From Acidobacteriota bacterium (GTDB taxonomy: Bacteria; Acidobacteriota; Vicinamibacteria; Vicinamibacterales; UBA2999): DNA of 32,356 bases. Under the pieces are notes generated by a model. The model saw nothing but the letters and a program-made list of their open reading frames with translations, did no database searches and was not told where the DNA came from. The position numbers and the translations under genes were made by a program. Where the stretch lies: NCBI GenBank assembly GCA_021730945.1, contig JAKFYH010000004.1, forward strand, positions 1-32,356. The letters run 5' to 3'. This document shows positions 4,304 through 29,727 of this stretch, in pieces; the stretch's first letter is position 1, and each line of letters begins with the position of its first letter.

Positions 4304-5947
4304 ATGAGCGAGATCCCGACGAGTGGTGTCCTCCCGACCAATGGTGCCTTCCCGGCCCGAAGTGCCCTCCCGGCCCGACGCGCCTATGACGCAGTCGTGA
4401 TTGGCGGCGGCGTGAATGGGCTGACGTGTGCGGCGATGCTGGGGAAGGCGGGCGTGCGCACGATCGTGGTCGAGCAACGCGACGAAGTGGGCGGCTGCGC
4501 GGCCGAGAGCGCGATTGCGCCGGGCTTCCGCGTGCCGACCCTCGCGCATGCCACCGGCCCGGTCCGGCGCGACGTGGTCGAGCACCTGCAGCTTTATCTG
4601 CATGGGCTCAGCTTCCTGGACTCGGCGATTGAGGTCAGCAGCCTGTCGCCGGACGGACGCGCGCTGACGATCTGGACCGACCCGCAGCGCACCGCGGCCG
4701 GCCTTGGCGAGTGGTCGGCCCGCGACGCGCACGCCTGGCCGGGGTTTCACCAGTCACTCGGACGGCTCGGCGGGCTGATCGGTTCGTTGTTTGAATCGGC
4801 GCCGCCGTCAATTGATGCGCCGCACGCGCGCGACCTGTTGTCGCTGATGCAGACGCTCTCGGCGTTCCGCGGCTTGCCCAAGGCCGATCAGTGGCGCTTG
4901 CTGCGTTGGGGGCCGATGGCCGCCGCCGACCTCGTGAGCGAGTCGGTCGACCACGAGTTGCTGCGGGCCACGCTGGCCGCCGACGGCATCTTCGGCGCCA
5001 TGCTGGGCCCATGGTCGGCGGGAAGCGGGTTGCAGCTGCTGCTCGCCGCCGCCAATCGATCGCTGGCATGGCCTGGAGGCCGGGTGGTCGCCGGCGGACC
5101 GGTGGCGGTTGCCCGCGCGCTCAGGCGCGCGGCTGAACGGCACGGCGTCGAGATTCGCACCGGGTCGGCGGTCGCGCGGATCGAGGTGAAGGCCGATCGC
5201 GCGGCCGGCGTCACGCTCGCCAACGGCGAGCACATCGAGGCTCGCGCGGTGGTGTCCGCCATCGACCCCAAGCAAACCTTGCTGTCCTTGTGCGACGCCG
5301 ATTATCTGCCGCCGGAGTTCTCGTGGCGCATGACTCACTACCGCTCGCGCGGCACGCTGGCCAAGGTCAACTTCGCGCTGTCGGCGCTGCCCGCGTTCAG
5401 CGGTGCGACGCGGGAGATGCTGGCCGGTCGCGTCCGCCTGGCGCCGGATCTTGACTACCTCGAGCGGGCGTTCGACCACGCCAAATACGGGCGCTATTCC
5501 TCACAGCCGTGGATCGAATTCACCGTTCCATCGATCGACAACCCTGCCCTGTCGCCCGGCGGCGCGCACGTGCTCTCGGCGTACGCGCAGTTTGCGCCGT
5601 ACGATCTGCGCGATACCAACTGGGACGCCGAGCGCGAGCCATTCGGCAACTTGGTCGCAGCGACCCTGGAGCGCTACGCGCCGGGTTTCTCTTCGCTGGT
5701 CGTTGCGAGGCAAACGCTGACGCCGCTTGACCTCGAACGCGGCTGGGGTCTGACCGGCGGGCAGATTTTCCATGGCGAGCTGTCGCTCGATCAGTTCTTC
5801 ACCATGCGTCCGCTACTGGGATTTGGCGACCATCACACGCCCATCCGCGGCCTCTTTCTGTGCAGCTCGGGTACCCATCCCGGCACGGGTCTCACCGGCG
5901 GATCCGGGGCAAATGCCGCAGCGGTGGTGGTTCGCGCGCTCGCCTGA
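4304..5947 (+). CDS. PYROXD2/phytoene-desaturase-like FAD-dependent oxidoreductase (copy 2)
   Basis: A 547-residue paralogue of the preceding protein, 8 nt downstream and probably in the same operon. It shares the order of motifs: FAD motif YDAVVIGGGVNGLTCAAMLG at about residues 28-47, VEQRDEVGGCAAES, YLERAFDHAKYGRYSS, and a C-terminal GLFLCSSGTHPGTGLTGGSG. Unlike copy 1, whose FAD motif begins at residue 2, this protein has about 27 extra residues before it. They are encoded by the 18-bp dispersed repeat and have a six-residue period (TSGVLP, TNGAFP, ARSALP). No downstream start lies before the FAD motif, so the ATG at 4304 and translation through the repeat are required. A tandem pair may form a heterodimer or two specificities. 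Confidence 0.85.
   Translation: MSEIPTSGVLPTNGAFPARSALPARRAYDAVVIGGGVNGLTCAAMLGKAGVRTIVVEQRDEVGGCAAESAIAPGFRVPTLAHATGPVRRDVVEHLQLYLHGLSFLDSAIEVSSLSPDGRALTIWTDPQRTAAGLGEWSARDAHAWPGFHQSLGRLGGLIGSLFESAPPSIDAPHARDLLSLMQTLSAFRGLPKADQWRLLRWGPMAAADLVSESVDHELLRATLAADGIFGAMLGPWSAGSGLQLLLAAANRSLAWPGGRVVAGGPVAVARALRRAAERHGVEIRTGSAVARIEVKADRAAGVTLANGEHIEARAVVSAIDPKQTLLSLCDADYLPPEFSWRMTHYRSRGTLAKVNFALSALPAFSGATREMLAGRVRLAPDLDYLERAFDHAKYGRYSSQPWIEFTVPSIDNPALSPGGAHVLSAYAQFAPYDLRDTNWDAEREPFGNLVAATLERYAPGFSSLVVARQTLTPLDLERGWGLTGGQIFHGELSLDQFFTMRPLLGFGDHHTPIRGLFLCSSGTHPGTGLTGGSGANAAAVVVRALA
4314..4379 (-). repeat. 18-bp dispersed repeat, four units, inside the 5' end of a coding sequence
   Basis: TCCCGRC cores start at 4314, 4332, 4350 and 4368, exactly 18 bp apart. 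This is the reverse orientation relative to the GTCGGGAGGGCAC form. The array begins 10 bp after the ATG of the second FAD oxidoreductase and is translated in the S-A-L-P frame as a six-residue periodic, Pro/Ala/Ser-rich N-terminal extension. Confidence 0.9.
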
Positions 5948-5975
5948 CGCCCAAAGTTCAAACTTGAAAGCCGGG

Positions 5976-7808: not shown

Positions 7809-9569
7809 GTGAAGCAATTCCTGCTGGTCGTGATGGTCTGGGGTCTGGCCACCGCCGTGGCGCAGGCCCAGGGTGGCGGCGGACAGTTTCCGGGCGGCCC
7901 CGGCGGCGGTCAGTTCCCCGGTGGTGGCCCGGGACAGCGGGGACAGGCGCGGGCGCTCCCGCTGCGCGACGATGCCCCCCGCGGCACGGCCATCATGCGC
8001 GGCCAGATCGTGGCCGCCGATAACGGCGCGCCGATCCGCCGCGCGCAAGTGCGCGTGATGTCTGCCGAAGCCCGGGAAAGCCGCCTGGCGGCGACCGACG
8101 CGCAAGGGCGCTTCGAAATCAAGGAACTGCCGGCCGGCCGCTACACCATGACCGCCAGCAAGGGCGGCTTCGTCTCGCTGCAGTACGGCCAGCGCCGCCC
8201 CTCAGAGTCAGGCACGCCCATCGAACTGGGCGATGGCCAGTCCCTCGACAAGCTCCAGATCGCCTTGCCCCGCGGCAGCGTGATCGGCGGACGCATCATG
8301 GATGAGTTCGGCGAACCGGTGGCCAACGCCGCGGTGGTCGCCATGCGCTACAGCTACGCTGCCGGCGGGCGCCGGCTGACGCCGGCCCCCGGCGGCAACT
8401 CTCGCGACACCACCGACGACCAGGGACACTTTCGCCTGTTCGGCTTGCCACCCGGTGAGTATTTCGTGAGTGCGACGCTGCGGTCCGGGGGCACCGAAGC
8501 CGCCGATCCCACCGGCGAGACCTCGGGCTACGCCGCTACCTACTACCCCGGCACGCCCAATCTCGGCGAAGCCAGCCGCGTGACGCTGGCGGTATCGCAG
8601 GAAAACACCACGGTGTCGTTCAGCCTGATCGCCACCCGATTGGTGCGCGTCACCGGCACGGTGCTGTCATCCGACGGCACGCCCGCCTCGGGCGCGACGA
8701 TTATGTTGCTGCCCGGGAATTCCGGCGGCGGCCGCGGCATTGCACTGCAGCAGGGCGGCAACGGCGCCCGGACCACTCCCACCGGCGCATTTCAAGTGGC
8801 CAACGTCGCGCCGGGCCGCTACCAGATGCAAGCGCGAACCGGGGGTCGCGGCGGCGAAGGCGAGCTGGCCCGCATGGATCTGGTGGTGGGCGCCGACGAT
8901 GTGACGGGCCTGACGATGGTGACGGCACCGGGCGCGACGATCACGGGAGCAGTGCTCAGCGACACCGGCGAGCCGCTCGATTTTCGAGCGTCGCAGTTGC
9001 AGATTGCCGCGCGGCCGGTCGACATCGACGTGGCCGGGATTGCCGGCGGCGGCGCTGGCCGCGTCGGTGACGACTGGAGCTTCGAGCTGCGCAACATCAC
9101 CGATGCCCGCCTGCTCCGGGTCAATGCGCCCAGTGGTTGGATTCTCAAGTCGGTGGGCCTCAATGGCCAGGACATTACCGATACACCCATCGAGTTTCCA
9201 CCTGGCCAGGCCGTCGGCGGTGTACAGGTGGTGCTGACCAAGAAGGTGACGGCGCTATCGGGCGCGGTGACCGACGCTCGCGGCAATCCGCTGCTCGACG
9301 CCACCGTGGTTGTGTTTCCAGCCGACGAGAAACTCTGGATGTTTCAGTCGCGATTCATCAAGGCGGCCCGGCCCGACCAGGCCGGCAGCTACCGCCTGAG
9401 CGGGCTGCCGCCGTCAGAAGATTACCTGGCCGTGGCGTTGCAGGGCCTGGAAGATGGCCAGGCCGGCGATCCCGACTTCCTGGCCTCGATCAAGGAACTG
9501 GCCACCAAGTTCACGCTCGGCGACGGCGAGACCAAGGCCGTCGACCTTAAACTCTCGACGCCGAAGTGA
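7809..9569 (+). CDS. secreted carboxypeptidase-regulatory-like domain protein (copy 2)
   Basis: A 586-residue tandem paralogue of the preceding protein. It has a signal peptide (MKQFLLVVMVWGLATAVAQA), then a Gly/Gln/Pro-rich segment (GGGGQFPGGPGGGQFPGGG) before the first module. The first module matches copy 1 closely (RGTAIMRGQIVA, PIRRAQVRVMS, GRFEIKELPAGRYTMTASKGG). Later modules contain GHFRLFGLPPGEYFVSATLRSG and GAFQVANVAPGRYQMQ, and the last one ends in KAVDLKLS. Length, module number and C-terminal architecture match copy 1, so the pair arose by gene duplication. No enzyme motif is visible. The GTG start is supported by the position of the signal peptide and an upstream -10 box. Confidence 0.82.
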   Translation: MKQFLLVVMVWGLATAVAQAQGGGGQFPGGPGGGQFPGGGPGQRGQARALPLRDDAPRGTAIMRGQIVAADNGAPIRRAQVRVMSAEARESRLAATDAQGRFEIKELPAGRYTMTASKGGFVSLQYGQRRPSESGTPIELGDGQSLDKLQIALPRGSVIGGRIMDEFGEPVANAAVVAMRYSYAAGGRRLTPAPGGNSRDTTDDQGHFRLFGLPPGEYFVSATLRSGGTEAADPTGETSGYAATYYPGTPNLGEASRVTLAVSQENTTVSFSLIATRLVRVTGTVLSSDGTPASGATIMLLPGNSGGGRGIALQQGGNGARTTPTGAFQVANVAPGRYQMQARTGGRGGEGELARMDLVVGADDVTGLTMVTAPGATITGAVLSDTGEPLDFRASQLQIAARPVDIDVAGIAGGGAGRVGDDWSFELRNITDARLLRVNAPSGWILKSVGLNGQDITDTPIEFPPGQAVGGVQVVLTKKVTALSGAVTDARGNPLLDATVVVFPADEKLWMFQSRFIKAARPDQAGSYRLSGLPPSEDYLAVALQGLEDGQAGDPDFLASIKELATKFTLGDGETKAVDLKLSTPK

Positions 9570-10932: not shown

Positions 10933-12495
10933 ATGTGGACACGCGTCATTCTCGTCTTGTCGCTGCTCGCCGTCGCCGCCGGCCGGCCGCAGGCCAGTGC
11001 GCCGCCATCACTTCCCGCGACCGACGGGGCCATCGTTCATGCACTAAACCGCCTGACCTACGGCCCGCGACCGGGCGACGTGGCGCGCGTGAAGGCCATG
11101 GGCCTGCAGCGCTGGATCGACCGCCAGCTCGACCCGTCGCGAATCGATGACGGCGTCCTGACCGCGTCGCTGGCCCGGCTGGAGACGCTGACGCTCGATT
11201 CGCAGACCATCCAGCGCGAGTACTCGGGCCCGGCGATGGTGGAGCGGCGCGAGCGGCAGCGCGACACCCCTGCCGGCGACGAGCCAAACCCCGTGACGCG
11301 CCCGCCTTCGCGAACGACCGGACAGTCGCAGGAAGAGATGGCCGCGCCCCGCACGAGACCGAGCGAGGCACAACTGAAAGACCGGCAAGTCATCGCCGAT
11401 CTCGAGGAAGCAAAGCTGCTGCGCGCGATTCACAGCGAACGGCAGCTGCAGGAAGTGCTCGTCGACTTCTGGTTCAACCACTTCAACGTGTTCGCGGGCA
11501 AAGGCGCGACGCGCAACTATCTGAGCGAGTACGAGCGCGAAGCCATCCGGCCGCACGTGCTCGGCAACTTCCGCGACATGCTCGAGGCCAGCGCGAAGAG
11601 CCCCGCCATGCTGTTCTATCTCGATAATTGGCAAAACGTCAGCCCCGACGCGTCGTCCCCAGGAGGCGCGCAGCGCCGACCCCAACGAAGGCCCGAAGGG
11701 CCGAGCCCCACAAGCGGCGCAGCCGCGAGCCCCACCCGCCTCGAAGTGGCGCGCCCCCAGAGAGGCATCAACGAAAACTACGCGCGCGAGCTCATGGAGC
11801 TTCACACCTTGGGTGTCGATGGCGGTTACACGCAGGCCGACGTCCAGAACGTGGCTCGCGCGCTCACCGGTTGGACGATTCAGCCGCGCGAGGGTTCGGG
11901 CACGCAGTTCGTGCCGCGGCTCCACGACGACAAAGCCAAGACGGTGCTCGGCCACACCCTCAAGGCCGGCGGCGGCGAGCGCGACCTCGAGCAGGTGCTC
12001 GATATCCTGGCGGCGCATCCGTCGACGGCGCGTCACATTGCCACCAAGCTGGCGGTGCGGTTCGTGAGCGACACACCGCCTGCCGCACTCGTGGATCGCG
12101 CGGCCGCGCGGTTCACCGCCACCGGGGGCGACCTGCGCGAGGTGGTGCGGACCATCATCACGTCGCCGGAGTTCTTCGCGCCCGACGCGCTTCGCGCGAA
12201 GGTGAAGACGCCGCTGGAGTTCGTGGCCAGCGCGCTGCGCGCCACCGGCGCGGAGGTCCGCACGGCGTTGCCGCTGGCGCGCGAGCTGCGCGACATGGGC
12301 ATGCCGCTTTATTTCTGCCAGCCGCCGACCGGCTACGACGACACCGCGACGACGTGGGTGTCGGCCGGGGCGCTGGTCAGCCGGATGAACTTCGCCGTGG
12401 CACTCGGCAAGAACGAAGTCCGCGGCGTGCGTATTGCCAATCCTCCCGACGATCTCGGCCAGGAGATTGGTTCACCCGCGTTCCAGAGACAGTGA
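10933..12495 (+). CDS. DUF1800 domain-containing secreted protein
   Basis: A 520-residue protein of the DUF1800 family, typically encoded beside DUF1501 as it is here. It has a signal peptide (MWTRVILVLSLLAVAAG) followed by HALNRLTYGPRPGDVARV, the family's usual opening. The central landmarks are VDFWFNHFNVFAGKG, a conserved LFYLDNWQ, and INENYARELMELHTLGVDGGYT, and the C-terminus has PTGYDDTATTWVSAGAL. Residues about 242-276, between LFYLDNWQ and the INENYAREL block, are a Pro/Arg/Ala-rich linker encoded by tandem mini-hairpin repeats. AGAGG lies 7 nt before the ATG. The biochemical role is unknown; the family is exported and co-occurs with a Tat-exported DUF1501 partner. Confidence 0.88.
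   Translation: MWTRVILVLSLLAVAAGRPQASAPPSLPATDGAIVHALNRLTYGPRPGDVARVKAMGLQRWIDRQLDPSRIDDGVLTASLARLETLTLDSQTIQREYSGPAMVERRERQRDTPAGDEPNPVTRPPSRTTGQSQEEMAAPRTRPSEAQLKDRQVIADLEEAKLLRAIHSERQLQEVLVDFWFNHFNVFAGKGATRNYLSEYEREAIRPHVLGNFRDMLEASAKSPAMLFYLDNWQNVSPDASSPGGAQRRPQRRPEGPSPTSGAAASPTRLEVARPQRGINENYARELMELHTLGVDGGYTQADVQNVARALTGWTIQPREGSGTQFVPRLHDDKAKTVLGHTLKAGGGERDLEQVLDILAAHPSTARHIATKLAVRFVSDTPPAALVDRAAARFTATGGDLREVVRTIITSPEFFAPDALRAKVKTPLEFVASALRATGAEVRTALPLARELRDMGMPLYFCQPPTGYDDTATTWVSAGALVSRMNFAVALGKNEVRGVRIANPPDDLGQEIGSPAFQRQ
11657..11758 (-). repeat. tandem mini-hairpin array (CCCC-spaced) inside the DUF1800 gene
   Basis: CCCC blocks begin at 11657, 11680, 11706, 11730 and 11754 (23-26 bp apart). 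Between them lie four hairpins with three-base GNA loops closed by C-G: GGCGC-GCA-GCGCC (11665-11677), GGCCC-GAA-GGGCC (11690-11702), GCGGC-GCA-GCCGC (11714-11726), and CGCCTC-GAA-GTGGCG with one T-T mismatch (11737-11751). Stem sequences differ while stem length, loop type and spacing are kept, so structure rather than sequence is conserved. The array stays in frame. Confidence 0.85.
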
Positions 12496-13960: not shown

Positions 13961-15124
13961 TCACGCCAGCGGCGCCACGTCCTCCAAGAGCCGCGACAGC
14001 GCCACCGCGCGAATCCGGGGCGCCAGCGGAAAAGTGCGATCGCCGGCGTGAATCACGTCGAGACGTGACAGTTTCAAGTCCTTGAGCGCGGCCCTCATCG
14101 ACGGCGTGACCGCGGGCGCCACGGTCCGCTTGATCTCGAAGCCGATTCGCGTGCGACCGCGGACGACCAGCAGGTCCAGTTCCGCGCCCGCGTACGTGGC
14201 CCAGAAGTAGCATTCGTCCCATCGCGCGCGGAGCTGGTCTACGATCGACGCGATCGCAAATCCCTCGAACGAGGCGCCAACTTTCGGGTGCCGTTCCAAG
14301 TCTTCGCGTGCGCCGAGGTTGAGCAAGGCGTGCAGCACTCCGCTATCGGCAATGTAGATCTTCGGCGACTTGACCTGCCGCTTGCCAAGGTTCTCGTGCC
14401 ACGGAAGGAGAATCCGGACCACGAAAGTCGCGGCCAACAGATCGAGATATCGCCGGACAGTCATATCCGAGACGCCGAACGACCGGGCGAACTCCGAGGC
14501 GTTCCACACCTGCCCGTGGTAATGCGCCAGCATCGTCCAGAAGCGGCGGAGCGTCGTGGCGGGAATCGAGACGCCAAGCTGGGGCAGGTCGCGGGCGAGG
14601 AAGGTATCGACGAAATCCAGCCGCCAATCCAGGCTGGCGCGGCCTGATCGCGCCAGGAAGGAGAGCGGAAAGCCGCCGCGCAACCACAGCTGGTCCAGGC
14701 GCGCGGCCCCGACCTCGTCGATGGCGAATGGCCCCAGTTCGTGAAAGGCCAGGCGGCCTGCCAGCGACTCCGACGACTGTTGAAGCAGCGCCGGCGAGGC
14801 GCTGCCGAGGACGAGAAAACGGGCCGGCGTCCGGGGGCGATCCGCCAGGACCCGCAACACCGGGAAGAGTTCCGGCCGCCGTTGGACTTCGTCCAGGATC
14901 ACCAGGCCACGCAGCGGCCGGAGGGCCAGCATCGGGTCAGCCAGGCTGGCGACGTCGCCGGGATCCTCCAGGTCGAAGGTCGTCACCGGCCCGTGCCACG
15001 CCGTGGCGATGGCCCTGGCCAGGGTGGTCTTGCCCACCTGGCGGGGCCCGAGAATGGCCACCGCCGGCGACCGCTTCAGGAGCTGCTGAAGGCGGCCTAG
15101 GTGCCGCTGGCGGTGGATATCCAT
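13961..15124 (-). CDS. AAA+ ATPase with C-terminal DUF4143 domain
   Basis: A 387-residue protein of the widespread AAA/DUF4143 group. Walker A is GPRQVGKTTLARA (residues 28-40), Walker B is GLVILDEVQRRPELFPVLR, and VLGSASPALL is the sensor 1 region. The C-terminal half shows the DUF4143 pattern: LSFLARS, DLPQLGVSIPATTLRRFW, a winged-helix-like SEFARSFGVSDMTVRRYLDLLAATFVV, YIADSGVLHALL, and a nuclease-like ending, CYFWATYAGAELDLLVVRG then IGFEIKRT. The role of the family is unclear; members are patchily distributed and often flanked by remnants, as here. ATG 15124 is chosen because the protein begins with the expected MDIHRQRHLGRLQQLL and a strong promoter ends 7 nt upstream. Confidence 0.88.
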   Translation of the reverse strand: MDIHRQRHLGRLQQLLKRSPAVAILGPRQVGKTTLARAIATAWHGPVTTFDLEDPGDVASLADPMLALRPLRGLVILDEVQRRPELFPVLRVLADRPRTPARFLVLGSASPALLQQSSESLAGRLAFHELGPFAIDEVGAARLDQLWLRGGFPLSFLARSGRASLDWRLDFVDTFLARDLPQLGVSIPATTLRRFWTMLAHYHGQVWNASEFARSFGVSDMTVRRYLDLLAATFVVRILLPWHENLGKRQVKSPKIYIADSGVLHALLNLGAREDLERHPKVGASFEGFAIASIVDQLRARWDECYFWATYAGAELDLLVVRGRTRIGFEIKRTVAPAVTPSMRAALKDLKLSRLDVIHAGDRTFPLAPRIRAVALSRLLEDVAPLA

Positions 15125-26910: not shown

Positions 26911-28959
26911 ATGGCGAGCGGTTTCGACAACCCACGCACCTTTGCGTGGCAAGGCCGGCGGATTTCAGCGGTCACCGTGCTGGTAGGCCTGGTCATGCTG
27001 CTCGTTCCGGCCCTGGCCTACATGCAGTACCAGTGGCTCGGCCAGCTCAGTACGGCCGAACGCGATCGCATGCAGCGGACGCTGCGGACGGCCGCCGCCC
27101 AGTTCGGCATGGAGTTCGACTCGGAGCTGTCGCGCGCCTTGATCAGCCTGCAGGTGGACGCCTCCACCATTCGCGACGAGAACTGGACCGGTTACGCGCA
27201 GCGATACTCGGCCTGGACGAACAGCGCGACGGAGCCGCGCCTGATCCGCGAGGTCCTGCTGGTCGACACGCTGCCAGGCACTGAACTGCCCGCGCTCGGA
27301 TCGGCCACAACTATTCCCGTCGAACAGCTGCGGCTCCGGCGTTGGAGCGCGCAAACCCTGACGTTCGAACCCGCGGAGTGGACGCCGGATCTCGCGGCGT
27401 TGCGCAGCTCGCTCTCCACCCATTTCGTCGGCTTCACCGTTGACCGCGGCGGTCGCGGCGGCGACGGCCGTGGCGGCGACCGCGGCCGGCTTGAGACCCG
27501 CGTTTCGCTCGGCGACGACCACACGCTGGTCTCGCCAGTCACCTTATTCGAGCTGCCGGAGGATCGGCGTAGTACGCCAAAGATCACCGTCCTCGGCTTC
27601 ACGGTGGTGCGCCTCGATCCGGCCGTGGTGCGCGACTCGCTGCTTGCGTCACTGGCCACGCGCCATTTTCACGGCAACGACGAAGAGGTGGATTACCGTG
27701 TGGCCGTGGTCCACAAGGACAACCCGGCCAGCGTGGTCTGGGAATCCGAACCAGGCGTGGCCAAGCTGATCGCGGCCTCCCCGGATGTGACCACCAACTT
27801 CATGGCGCCGCGCCCCGACCAGATGTTTGTGTTCGCGCGCGGCGGTTCCGCGCCGCCACCGCCGCCACCGCCGCCGGCCCCGCGCGACAGCGCGACGCCA
27901 ACATCCCCGGATGAGACGACCCGGCTGCGCACTGAAAACCTGGTGGTGTCGATGGTCGAGCGAGAGACCCGCGGCGGCGGTCCCGGCCGGGTGATCACGA
28001 CGCGGAGCTCGGCCCTCGGGCCTTATGACGGCCGATGGATCCTGATGGCCAAACACCGCGCCGGCTCGCTCGAGGCGGCAGTCGCGGCGGTCCGCCAGCG
28101 CAACCTGCTGGTGAGTTCGAGCGTGCTGCTGTTGTTGACCACCGCAGTTGGGTTGATTGTCGTCTCGGCGCGCAGGGCCCAGGATCTGGCCAGGCGGCAG
28201 ATGGAGTTTGTCGCCGCGGTTTCCCACGAGCTGCGCACGCCGGTCTCGGTGATTGGCGCCGCCGCCGGCAACCTGGCCGACGGCGTGGTCGGCGATCCGC
28301 AGCGCGTGCGGAAGTACGGTGAGACGATCCAGGGCGAAGCCCGGCGGCTGGCCGAAACCGTCGAGCGGGTGCTGCAACTCGCCGGCATCGCCGCCGGCCG
28401 GGCCGCGGCCACGCGGTCAGCGGTCGTTCCGGGAACGCTGGTCAATGAAGCTGTCAACGCCTGCCGCACGGAGATCGATCAAGCCGGCGTCCAGGTGGAA
28501 GTCGAGGTGGCGCCGGATCTGCCGCCGGTGCTCGGTGATGCCGGCGCCCTGCGCTCGGCGCTCCGTAATCTGATCAGTAACGCGGTGAAGTACGGCGGCG
28601 ATGCCCGCTGGGTGCGCATCGCCGCACGGCCGGGAGTCGGGAGTCGGAAGTCGGGAGTCGGCAAGAGCGTCATCTTCACGGTTGAGGACCACGGCCTGGG
28701 CATCGACGCCGACGACCGCAAGCACATCTTCGAGCCGTTCTATCGCGGGCGCGAGGCGGTGTCGAAGCAAATCCAGGGCAGCGGCCTCGGCCTCAACCTG
28801 GTGGCACGCATCGCCCAGGCTCACGGCGGTCGCGTCACCGTGACCAGTGAACCGGGCAAGGGCAGCGCGTTTGTGATGACTCTGCCGGCGGCGACCAACC
28901 AGGCGGCGGCCGAAGCGCAGTCGACCCTGGCGCACGGGCTGGAAGCGTCGCGGTCGTGA
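26911..28959 (+). CDS. membrane-bound sensor histidine kinase
   Basis: A 682-residue sensor kinase. TM1 lies at about residues 20-39 and TM2 at about 399-418, leaving an unusually large periplasmic sensor region of roughly 360 residues with no recognised domain. This region contains low-complexity inserts: an Arg/Gly/Asp stretch (DRGGRGGDGRGGDRG) and a run of eight prolines. The transmitter is complete: H-box FVAAVSHELRTP with H439, N-box NLISNAVKYGG, G1 VEDHGLGI, F-box IFEPFYRG, and G2 GSGLGLNL. A 7-bp tandem repeat encodes an extra loop (GVGSRKSGVG) between two strands of the ATPase domain. Its stop overlaps the response regulator start. Position opposite the TonB receptor operon suggests it controls that operon. 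Confidence 0.92.
   Translation: MASGFDNPRTFAWQGRRISAVTVLVGLVMLLVPALAYMQYQWLGQLSTAERDRMQRTLRTAAAQFGMEFDSELSRALISLQVDASTIRDENWTGYAQRYSAWTNSATEPRLIREVLLVDTLPGTELPALGSATTIPVEQLRLRRWSAQTLTFEPAEWTPDLAALRSSLSTHFVGFTVDRGGRGGDGRGGDRGRLETRVSLGDDHTLVSPVTLFELPEDRRSTPKITVLGFTVVRLDPAVVRDSLLASLATRHFHGNDEEVDYRVAVVHKDNPASVVWESEPGVAKLIAASPDVTTNFMAPRPDQMFVFARGGSAPPPPPPPPAPRDSATPTSPDETTRLRTENLVVSMVERETRGGGPGRVITTRSSALGPYDGRWILMAKHRAGSLEAAVAAVRQRNLLVSSSVLLLLTTAVGLIVVSARRAQDLARRQMEFVAAVSHELRTPVSVIGAAAGNLADGVVGDPQRVRKYGETIQGEARRLAETVERVLQLAGIAAGRAAATRSAVVPGTLVNEAVNACRTEIDQAGVQVEVEVAPDLPPVLGDAGALRSALRNLISNAVKYGGDARWVRIAARPGVGSRKSGVGKSVIFTVEDHGLGIDADDRKHIFEPFYRGREAVSKQIQGSGLGLNLVARIAQAHGGRVTVTSEPGKGSAFVMTLPAATNQAAAEAQSTLAHGLEASRS
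28632..28659 (+). repeat. 7-bp tandem repeat inside the kinase ATPase domain
   Basis: Four units: GGGAGTC, GGGAGTC, GGAAGTC, GGGAGTC. The unit length is not a multiple of three, so gain or loss of one unit would shift the kinase frame ahead of the G1, F and G2 boxes. In the present sequence the frame is intact. Confidence 0.85.
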
Positions 28960-29654
28960 CGGTGTCCGGCAAGCGGCTCCTGCTCGTCGAGGACGAACCC
29001 GGCCTGCAACTGGCGCTCAGCGATCGGCTGTCGGCCGAGGGCTTTGCGGTGGAGACGGCCGGCGACGGCAACGTCGCGATCGCGCGCGCCACCGGCGAAC
29101 CCTTCGACATCATCGTGCTCGACGTGATGCTGCCGGGCCGCGATGGCTTTGACGTGGCCAGGACCATCCGGCAGCAGGGCGTGCAAACCCCCATCCTCAT
29201 GCTGACGGCGCGCAGCGAAGTGGTAGACCGGGTGGTCGGCCTCAAGCTGGGGGCGGACGACTATCTCACCAAGCCGTTCGAGACCATCGAGCTGCTCGCG
29301 CGAATCGAGGCCTTGCTGCGCCGCGCGCCCAGCGGCTCGCCGGGCCTGTCGCTCGAACGCTACAGCTTTGGCGACATCACGGTGGACGTGCGCAAGGCCG
29401 AGGTGATGAGCAAGGGGCAGCCGCTCGATCTGTCGGCCAAGGAATTCCAGCTGCTCAAGTACTTCATCGAGCATCGCGGCGCCACGATCTCACGCGACGA
29501 ACTGCTCCATGAGGTGTGGGGCTACAGCGCCATGCCGTCAACCCGCACGGTCGATGTCCATGTCGCGTGGTTGCGTCAGAAGCTCGAGACCAATCCGCGG
29601 GTGCCGCAGTTCATCCTTACCGTGCACGGGCTGGGTTACAAGTTCGCGGGGTAG
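28956..29654 (+). CDS. OmpR/PhoB-family response regulator
   Basis: A 232-residue two-domain regulator. The receiver domain (about residues 6-120) has the acidic pair VEDE, phosphoacceptor D56 in VLDVMLPGRDG, the conserved Thr in MLTARS and K106 in DDYLTKPF. The DNA-binding domain (about 135-232) is a winged helix of the OmpR/PhoB type, with SAKEFQLLKYFIEHRGATIS, LLHEVWGYSAMPSTRTVDVH and a closing TVHGLGYKF. The GTG start overlaps the kinase TGA by four bases (GTGA), so kinase and regulator are made together. The 11-bp direct repeats upstream of the operon are its best candidate target, predicting autoregulation and control of the divergent receptor operon. Confidence 0.95.
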   Translation: MTVSGKRLLLVEDEPGLQLALSDRLSAEGFAVETAGDGNVAIARATGEPFDIIVLDVMLPGRDGFDVARTIRQQGVQTPILMLTARSEVVDRVVGLKLGADDYLTKPFETIELLARIEALLRRAPSGSPGLSLERYSFGDITVDVRKAEVMSKGQPLDLSAKEFQLLKYFIEHRGATISRDELLHEVWGYSAMPSTRTVDVHVAWLRQKLETNPRVPQFILTVHGLGYKFAG

Positions 29655-29727
29655 GGGTCGGGCGCATACGCGCCCTCGTAGGGGTCGGCCTTACGGCCTT
29701 CCTGGGGCTCGCTTCGCTCGTGGGGGT
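29654..29727 (+). repeat. second tandem mini-hairpin array (GGGG-spaced) after the response regulator
   Basis: GGGG blocks at 29654, 29681, 29704 and 29722 separate GGGCGC-ATAC-GCGCCC (29660-29675), GGCC-TTAC-GGCC (29687-29698) and GCTTCGC (29711-29717). Read on the minus strand the grammar is CCCC, a short spacer with ACGA or AGGA, a hairpin, GA, CCCC: the same as in the DUF1800 gene. The array begins on the last base of the regulator's stop codon. Its minus strand holds GCGAAGC, known as an exceptionally stable DNA mini-hairpin. Confidence 0.75.

Follow-up and report, generated by a model that had tools for sequence, protein, structure and literature searches.

The window analysed here, a stretch of 32,356 nucleotides from an Acidobacteriota genome, carries a string of four mini-hairpins within a gene for a DUF1800 protein. 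In the reading that we consider probable, this string represents a gene-internal cluster of a family of REP-like repeats, which is concentrated in one acidobacterial genus, probably of the Vicinamibacterales. The units would be non-autonomous elements, spreading and homogenising within a genome via single-stranded DNA hairpins, and they would be handled either by some enzyme, a RAYT-like Y1 protein being one candidate, or by recombination between repeats. Pairing would be restored after mutation, through selection or through the copying of one arm from the other. In the DUF1800 gene itself, an ancestral in-frame insertion into a linker of variable length would have been followed by gains and losses of units. 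The family looks new, in its host group as well as in its structural form. It is called REP-like, and not a RAYT-driven REP family, because the link to a RAYT gene is absent, the tag GTGG is commoner, the units are joined head to tail and their stems differ.

The array in the DUF1800 gene

The features of the window are collected in Table 1, where R1 designates a model of the unit built from 12 units. The original prediction had placed four hairpins at positions 11657-11758, with C-G-closed GCA or GAA loops, CCCC ahead of each unit and a regular spacing. The sequence bears this out for all four, with one T·T mismatch in the fourth. Units 1 to 3 have perfect 5-bp stems. The loops start at 11670, 11695, 11719 and 11743, giving spacings of 25, 24 and 24 nt. 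Structure, loop class and spacing are retained despite the changed letters of the stems, as had also been proposed.

Table 1. Hairpin arrays of the window and the gene that hosts the first of them.
Feature	Positions	Strand	Make-up and basis	Unit with flanks; hairpin
Host gene, DUF1800 protein, 520 aa	10933..12495	+	Pfam PF08811, E 1e-137; ORF list	
In-frame array	11656..11760	+	Read as SPGGAQRRPQRRPEGPSPTSGAAASPTRLEVARPQ; sequence, frame and peptide; variable among orthologues	
Unit 1, 'first' type	11657..11681	+	CCCC-AGGA-GGCGC gca GCGCC-GA, outer pair G..C; R1 match 11657-11685, 40.1 bits	CCCCAGGA-GGCGC-gca-GCGCC-GACCCC; 11665-11677
Unit 2	11682..11705	+	CCAACGAA-GGCCC gaa GGGCC-GAG; R1 match 11688-11710, 27.2 bits; sequence	CCCCAACGAA-GGCCC-gaa-GGGCC-GAGCCC; 11690-11702
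Unit 3	11706..11729	+	CCCCACAA-GCGGC gca GCCGC-GAG; R1 match 11706-11734, 45.5 bits	CCCCACAA-GCGGC-gca-GCCGC-GAGCCC; 11714-11726
Unit 4	11730..11758	+	CCCCACC-CGCCTC gaa GTGGCG, one T·T mismatch, then CGCCCC; sequence; no R1 match listed	6-bp stem with one internal T·T mismatch; 11737-11751
Second array, three units	29652..29727	-	R1 matches 29652-29683 and 29703-29725; sequence	

Three or more perfect GNA hairpins of at least 5 bp arose in none of 200,000 mononucleotide shuffles of the DUF1800 stretch and in none of 200,000 recodings with synonymous codons that preserve the peptide; two was the most seen in either set. Together with the flank-only search of the genome and its control (see below), these tests rule out a chance origin of the hairpin string. 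In the minimum-free-energy fold of the + strand of the array, unit 2 alone forms and four separate mini-hairpins are not obtained. The energy of this strand is mildly below that of shuffles (z -1.63 as DNA, -1.93 as RNA), the values for the other strand being -0.48 and -0.02. In the second array of the window, two of the three hairpins form when the GNA strand is folded (z -1.35). Energy folding strongly favours neither strand.

The array occupies the linker between YLDN and NENYAREL. This linker holds four units in the window's own genome (G000, 4.73 Mb), three in G005, three in G006 and two in G007, where unit 2 resembles a fusion of the flank of unit 2 with the hairpin of unit 3. G001 has a remnant that corresponds to the start of a first unit, and the linkers of G002, G003, G004 and G008 contain no units. 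In a one-gene DUF1800 tree, calculated with the linker removed, G003 is the sister of the array-bearing G007 (support 100/99), so that the array was probably lost in G003. In named relatives, the linkers measure 16-82 aa, are without conserved sequence and are in many cases rich in Pro and Arg; of the 80 DUF1800 loci of named records that ranked best among 581, none matches the unit model at E<=0.1. Conservation of the linker amino acids, which the original prediction had named as the observation that would speak against it, was looked for in the homologues and not found: length is variable and the array is present or absent depending on the species.

A second intragenic array was observed in an Amidohydro_2 gene of the same genome (L174:13550-14581, contig C10). 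It lies in frame at 13966-14102 and includes six short units of 18 nt encoding repeated SPTSEA. Judging from their sequences, intragenic arrays look like guests tolerated in permissive loops. The two in-frame cases show how such repeats add linkers to proteins.

Anatomy, placement and distribution of the units

Searching the genome of the window with R1 gave at least 96 matches at E<=10, a figure that is a lower bound because 150 candidates were scored. As the loci behind the unit statistics given below (59 units, loops, linkers) were chosen because they hold matches, a flank-only pattern leaving 13 free bases between the flanks provides a bias-free test. In G000, this pattern has 27 matches, against one for the reversed control. 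Twenty-one of them are perfect 5-bp hairpins, five are hairpins with one or two mismatches and one is unrelated. The genome search for other arrays, proposed as a check together with the original prediction, therefore found many. One is the second array of the window, situated directly 3' of the TAG stop codon of ORF 28956-29654, between convergent ORFs; it was seen to contain a short unit with the core GCGAAGC. A known structured RNA is ruled out by the result of Rfam 15 at the gathering score, 0 matches in the window. An exact match to the unit pattern was noticed at L251 6432-6458, within a 73.6-kb contig of a viral collection. A phage-borne family was rejected, since one viral stretch only has an exact match.

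Typically, the unit consists of a GC stem of 5 bp with a loop GNA or GNNA, framed by a tandem G·A mismatch as bracket and, outside it, by a pair that is C-G (or G-C). The sequence of internal units is CC[CT]AC-GA-stem-GNA-stem-GAG. By eye, CCCC-AGGA-stem-loop-stem-GA-CCCC is a frequent form of first units, and the stem is longer in several last units, whose bracket has turned fully paired. Successive units follow each other head to tail through linkers of the form GT[AG]GG / CC[CT]AC. The stem is shared in 9 of 28 adjacent unit pairs and different in the other 19. A short form of the unit has a 2-bp stem, and its 7-nt middle is exactly GCGAAGC in 13 cases out of 30.

Of the 295 stem cells in 59 units defined by their flanks, 272 form Watson-Crick pairs; shuffling the 3' arms among the units gives 193 on average (sd 7.6) and at most 217 in 2000 trials. 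At pairs 2-4, G-C and C-G replace each other; 55 of the 59 units have G-C at pair 1 and 55 have C-G at pair 5. The 23 unpaired cells comprise 4 G·T and 6 A·C, and neither strand therefore shows tolerance of wobble pairs. In perfect stems of at least 4 bp, C-G closes the loop in 94 cases out of 94, and covariation is seen in the pair on the outer side of the tandem G·A mismatch (C..G 82, G..C 10, C..C 2). GNA accounts for 51 of 64 distinct triloops (GAA 27, GCA 12, GGA 7, GTA 5). Loops longer than 3 nt, found in 22 distinct units, are GNRA in 13, GNYA in 3 and others in 6. In DNA, both C-GNA-G loops and sheared G·A pairs in tandem form very stable structures. Passages of PMC6479982 discuss GNA loops. 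In some units (L170 1745-1806, L272 ~2020-2085, L252 near 2586 and others), the place of the GNA loop is taken by a longer hairpin, ACTTGTCCGCCG...GGCGGAAG. Nested in this way, it resembles a further repeat with the hairpin loop as its target.

Placement, stop codons and strands were counted with the gene calls of a codon-score finder of our own. The 41 clusters of G000 are distributed among unidirectional (19), convergent (15) and divergent (4) neighbours, two intragenic positions and one unplaced case. Of the 38 between-gene clusters, 33 are no more than 60 nt away from a gene 3' end. The impression that the array is special to the DUF1800 gene did not hold, two clusters of 41 being well inside an ORF and the usual site being just after a stop codon. 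When a gene ends no more than 40 nt from an array, this codon is TAG in 28 cases out of 37, compared with 52 out of 132 for the other genes (Fisher p 1.4e-4). One orientation is found in 26 clusters and both in 15; in all 15 two-orientation clusters, the minus-strand units are on the left and the plus-strand units on the right, with complementary GT[AG]G tags that point outward. Forty-six gene ends have a unit no more than 100 nt away. In 33 of these the nearest unit has its GNA strand antisense to the gene and in 13 sense, so that the stable GNA loops are usually not in the mRNA of that gene. Three further arrays overlap the first codons of called ORFs, and they precede the Pfam match in L169 and L171; these three ORF starts may have been called too early. 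Tandem 7-base repeats of the type GATCAGG were also seen just upstream of predicted gene starts (L174 ~8640-8715, L169 ~5928-5960).

R1 has matches at E<=0.1 in 15 of 60 genomes, the window's own included. Within the genus, they number 79 in G001, 78 in G000, 53 in G005, 40 in G006, 14 in G007, 6 in G002 and 3 in G003, and G004 and G008 have none at this threshold. Eight genomes outside the genus have 1 to 10 each. In a sample of 297 genomes of the phylum, with 25 candidates scored per genome, 14 match at E<=0.01 and three of these belong to the genus. Each of the remaining 11, which come from two further genera (nine and two genomes), has one weak match, more than one match being found in genomes of the genus only. 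A family spread over the whole phylum was rejected on these counts. G003 was seen to be nearly array-free even though its DUF1800 gene groups with that of G007, and a genome-wide loss of arrays is possible in this species.

Linkers between units differ from genome to genome. GAGTCC and GAGCCC stand in a ratio of 36:7 in G001, against 2:45 in G000, 0:34 in G005 and 2:23 in G006, a skew that points to homogenisation across loci within lineages. As GAGTCC is also found in two of two linkers of G002, the sister of G001 in the one-gene tree, the variant may be inherited by lineage. Orthologous intergenic sites were compared in 12 printed sets, of which set C was left out as too short to tell. Array units stand at the same place in another species in 11 of the 11 informative sets, mostly with different stems, although these sets give no rate because they were drawn from loci known to hold arrays. 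At the orthologous site L178/L279, several stems have changed in both arms with pairing kept. Orthologous arrays show long residence, and no movement is seen in the comparison of species. With their different yet paired stems, they constitute a data set for weighing selection against arm copying in the upkeep of bacterial palindromes.

Y1 proteins and the upkeep of the units

Y1_Tnp genes occur in all nine genomes of the genus (44 matches), with 5 in the array-free G004 and 13 in the array-free G008. All 44 loci were inspected together with some 1.5 kb of flanking DNA on either side, as far as the contigs extend. Arrays of at least two units are found beside none of the 43 loci run through the parser, and R1 recognises a single unit at L198 (E 0.017), besides two matches that are very weak (E 0.15 and 0.86). 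At L198 (~1230-1310, G007), an array unit and an imperfect second one, recognised by eye, were observed about 200 bases upstream of a Y1 transposase ORF. This is the single convincing array unit near a Y1 gene among the 44 loci, which by a rough estimate is no more than expected by chance.

Among the five Y1 proteins of G000, that of L210 scores 118 bits and the others 57-76, the NCBIfam RAYT cut-off being 80. The L210 RAYT gene (contig C10, ~45,400-46,000) is bordered on both flanks by tandem palindromes with a 10-bp stem, AGCGACGGCT-TY-AGCCGTCGCT. Flanking palindromes of this type are also present, to varying degree, at its relatives in G001, G005 and G007, with variants in G008. L210 and its palindromes look like an ordinary REPtron of a second REP family. 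A link between a RAYT and REPs thus exists in this genome, and the mini-hairpin units are not part of it.

Elsewhere, G000 has a gene for another Y1 protein, RAYT-like and present in single copy (C12:130940-131785, L302/L316; 282 residues as searched, 62 bits for a cut-off of 80). Five other genomes of the genus, each with at least six array matches, have a protein with 49-58% identity to it. Identity is only 34-41% in the array-free G004 and G008, and G003, with its three array matches, gives no match at E<=1e-30. When 43 Y1 proteins are grouped at 45% identity, six single-copy proteins correspond to exactly the six genus genomes with at least six array matches. For any one group, a 6/3 split as perfect as this would arise by chance once in 84 times, to be read with about ten groups looked at and a cut chosen afterwards. 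Outside the genus, the protein is missing at E<=1e-30 in G029, G032 and G036, which have 7-10 array matches, and no arrays are found beside the single-copy gene. Being post hoc, involving about ten groups and failing outside the genus, the association is a lead only, by which this protein may be considered as one candidate enzyme for handling the units.

Several other explanations may be envisaged. Quasipalindrome correction proceeds by intra-strand template switching. It is possible, if somewhat doubtful, that such switching keeps the arms complementary while slippage alters the number of tandem units, with neither function nor transposase. The adjacent pairs with the same stem (9 of 28), the fusion-like appearance of unit 2 in G007 and the lack, as a rule, of a transposase gene beside the arrays would all be in keeping with neutral maintenance. 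However, alone it leaves unexplained that dozens of separate sites obey one grammar, as well as the genome-specific linker variants and the fixed outward orientation. Another idea is that transcribed arrays act at the 3' side of genes, where they would stabilise, process or terminate mRNAs, pairing being kept by selection on the RNA. The closeness of 33 of 38 between-gene clusters to a gene 3' end (within 60 nt) argues for it, as do the distinct loops longer than 3 nt (13 of 22 GNRA, 3 GNYA, 6 others), yet these numbers are small and the GNRA excess is partly a GNA loop with a doubled A. G·T wobbles are not favoured (4, versus 6 A·C, among the 23 unpaired cells), the GNA strand is antisense at 33 and sense at 13 of the 46 gene ends, and no Rfam family matches the window. 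Such an RNA element appears unlikely to us, and on mixed evidence we would lean towards a structural role at the level of DNA rather than RNA. Finally, it is scarcely credible that the pattern is merely low-complexity GC-rich sequence coding for a Pro/Arg linker. The DUF1800 linkers of named relatives are indeed variable and many are Pro/Arg-rich, but three hairpins appear in none of the 200,000 synonymous recodings, the same units are found in intergenic DNA on both strands, and none of the 80 named-record loci, the best of 581, matches the unit model at E<=0.1. A linker explained by the protein only is refuted by the genome-wide family, the recodings and the named-record loci.

The original prediction had also evoked an element that copies by structure. 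This comes close to what the data suggest, the copying itself being what we infer. Beyond the REP-like family favoured here, one may go as far as imagining that the inherited 'sequence' is a shape, namely near-any GC stem able to form a C-GNA-G mini-hairpin with G·A brackets on one DNA strand, and that a process other than ordinary RAYT recognises this shape to copy, homogenise and re-pair units genome-wide. We regard this extension as improbable. The nearly free stem, the fixed loop and bracket, and the ordinary RAYT accompanied by other REPs separate shape from sequence and so offer a natural test of what is recognised.

Comparison with known repeats

Mini-hairpins of the d(GCGAAGC) type have the same C-GNA-G loop with a free middle base, and differ from the units in being model oligonucleotides, not a genomic repeat family. 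Membership of the CGTC REP superfamily was rejected. Extracts of its description give it a CGTC tag, stems of 8-9 bp with A-T in the first two pairs and loops of 4-5 nt, and the units have mostly 5-bp GC stems and 3-nt loops. Among the literature matches listed, no paper deals with such repeats in this group.

In E. coli REPs, a mismatch within the stem is needed for the activity of TnpA-REP, as reported in passages of PMC8266576. This conserved mismatch, near the 4-base tag, resembles the G·A bracket of the units (T·C on the other strand). By the same passages, E. coli REPs differ in sequence, in length, in their mosaic organisation and in the demonstrated cleavage by TnpA-REP. The REPINs of Pseudomonas fluorescens are represented, in excerpts of Bertels and Rainey (2011, PMC3116915), by 16-mers such as GTGGGAGGGGGCTTGC, with core GGGGGCTTGCCCCC. 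They also begin with GTGGG (GTGGGAG in the 16-mer), followed by a short GC palindrome, and form inverted pairs; compensatory changes are described in their spacer hairpin. The same excerpts indicate a common 16-mer per group and clustering beside a RAYT of their own, in contrast with the diverse stems of the units, for which no such link was found.

The closest likeness in anatomy is with the GTAG REPs (Di Nocera et al., 2013, PMC3733652). In the passages cited, these are palindromes of 20-40 bp at gene 3' ends, with an unpaired GTAG (or GTRG) tag at one end, the TAG of the tag used as stop codon, outward (HH) pairs, alternative complementary residues in the stem, and intragenic clusters that encode tens of residues. 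Leaving aside the tag, considered below, these traits recur here, where many short palindromes are mostly intergenic (38 of 41 clusters between genes), with convergent or unidirectional neighbours and a shared TAG stop. GTAG-1 of Thauera sp. MZ1T, with its 5-bp stems in clusters, appears especially similar from the same passages. The original pattern is real and unusual-looking, but less exotic than had been proposed, since its anatomy matches much of what these pages of PMC3733652 describe for the REP class. The differences concern the tag, mostly GTGG in the present family (29 CCCAC versus 13 CCTAC in G000) and common to both neighbours in tandem, and the regular head-to-tail arrays, in which neighbouring stems vary, the loops are GNA/GNNA and a tandem G·A mismatch forms the bracket. 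According to the same passages, head-to-tail dimers are absent or rare in most REP genomes, although clusters are known. A RAYT gene flanked by repeats is typical of GTAG REPs, being reported as missing in some species in the part of the literature cited; here, no RAYT flanked by the units was found among the 44 Y1 loci, and the above-cut-off RAYT of the genome has another REP family. In the one survey considered, REP elements are reported mainly from Proteobacteria and a few other phyla; the present REP-like family is from Acidobacteriota.
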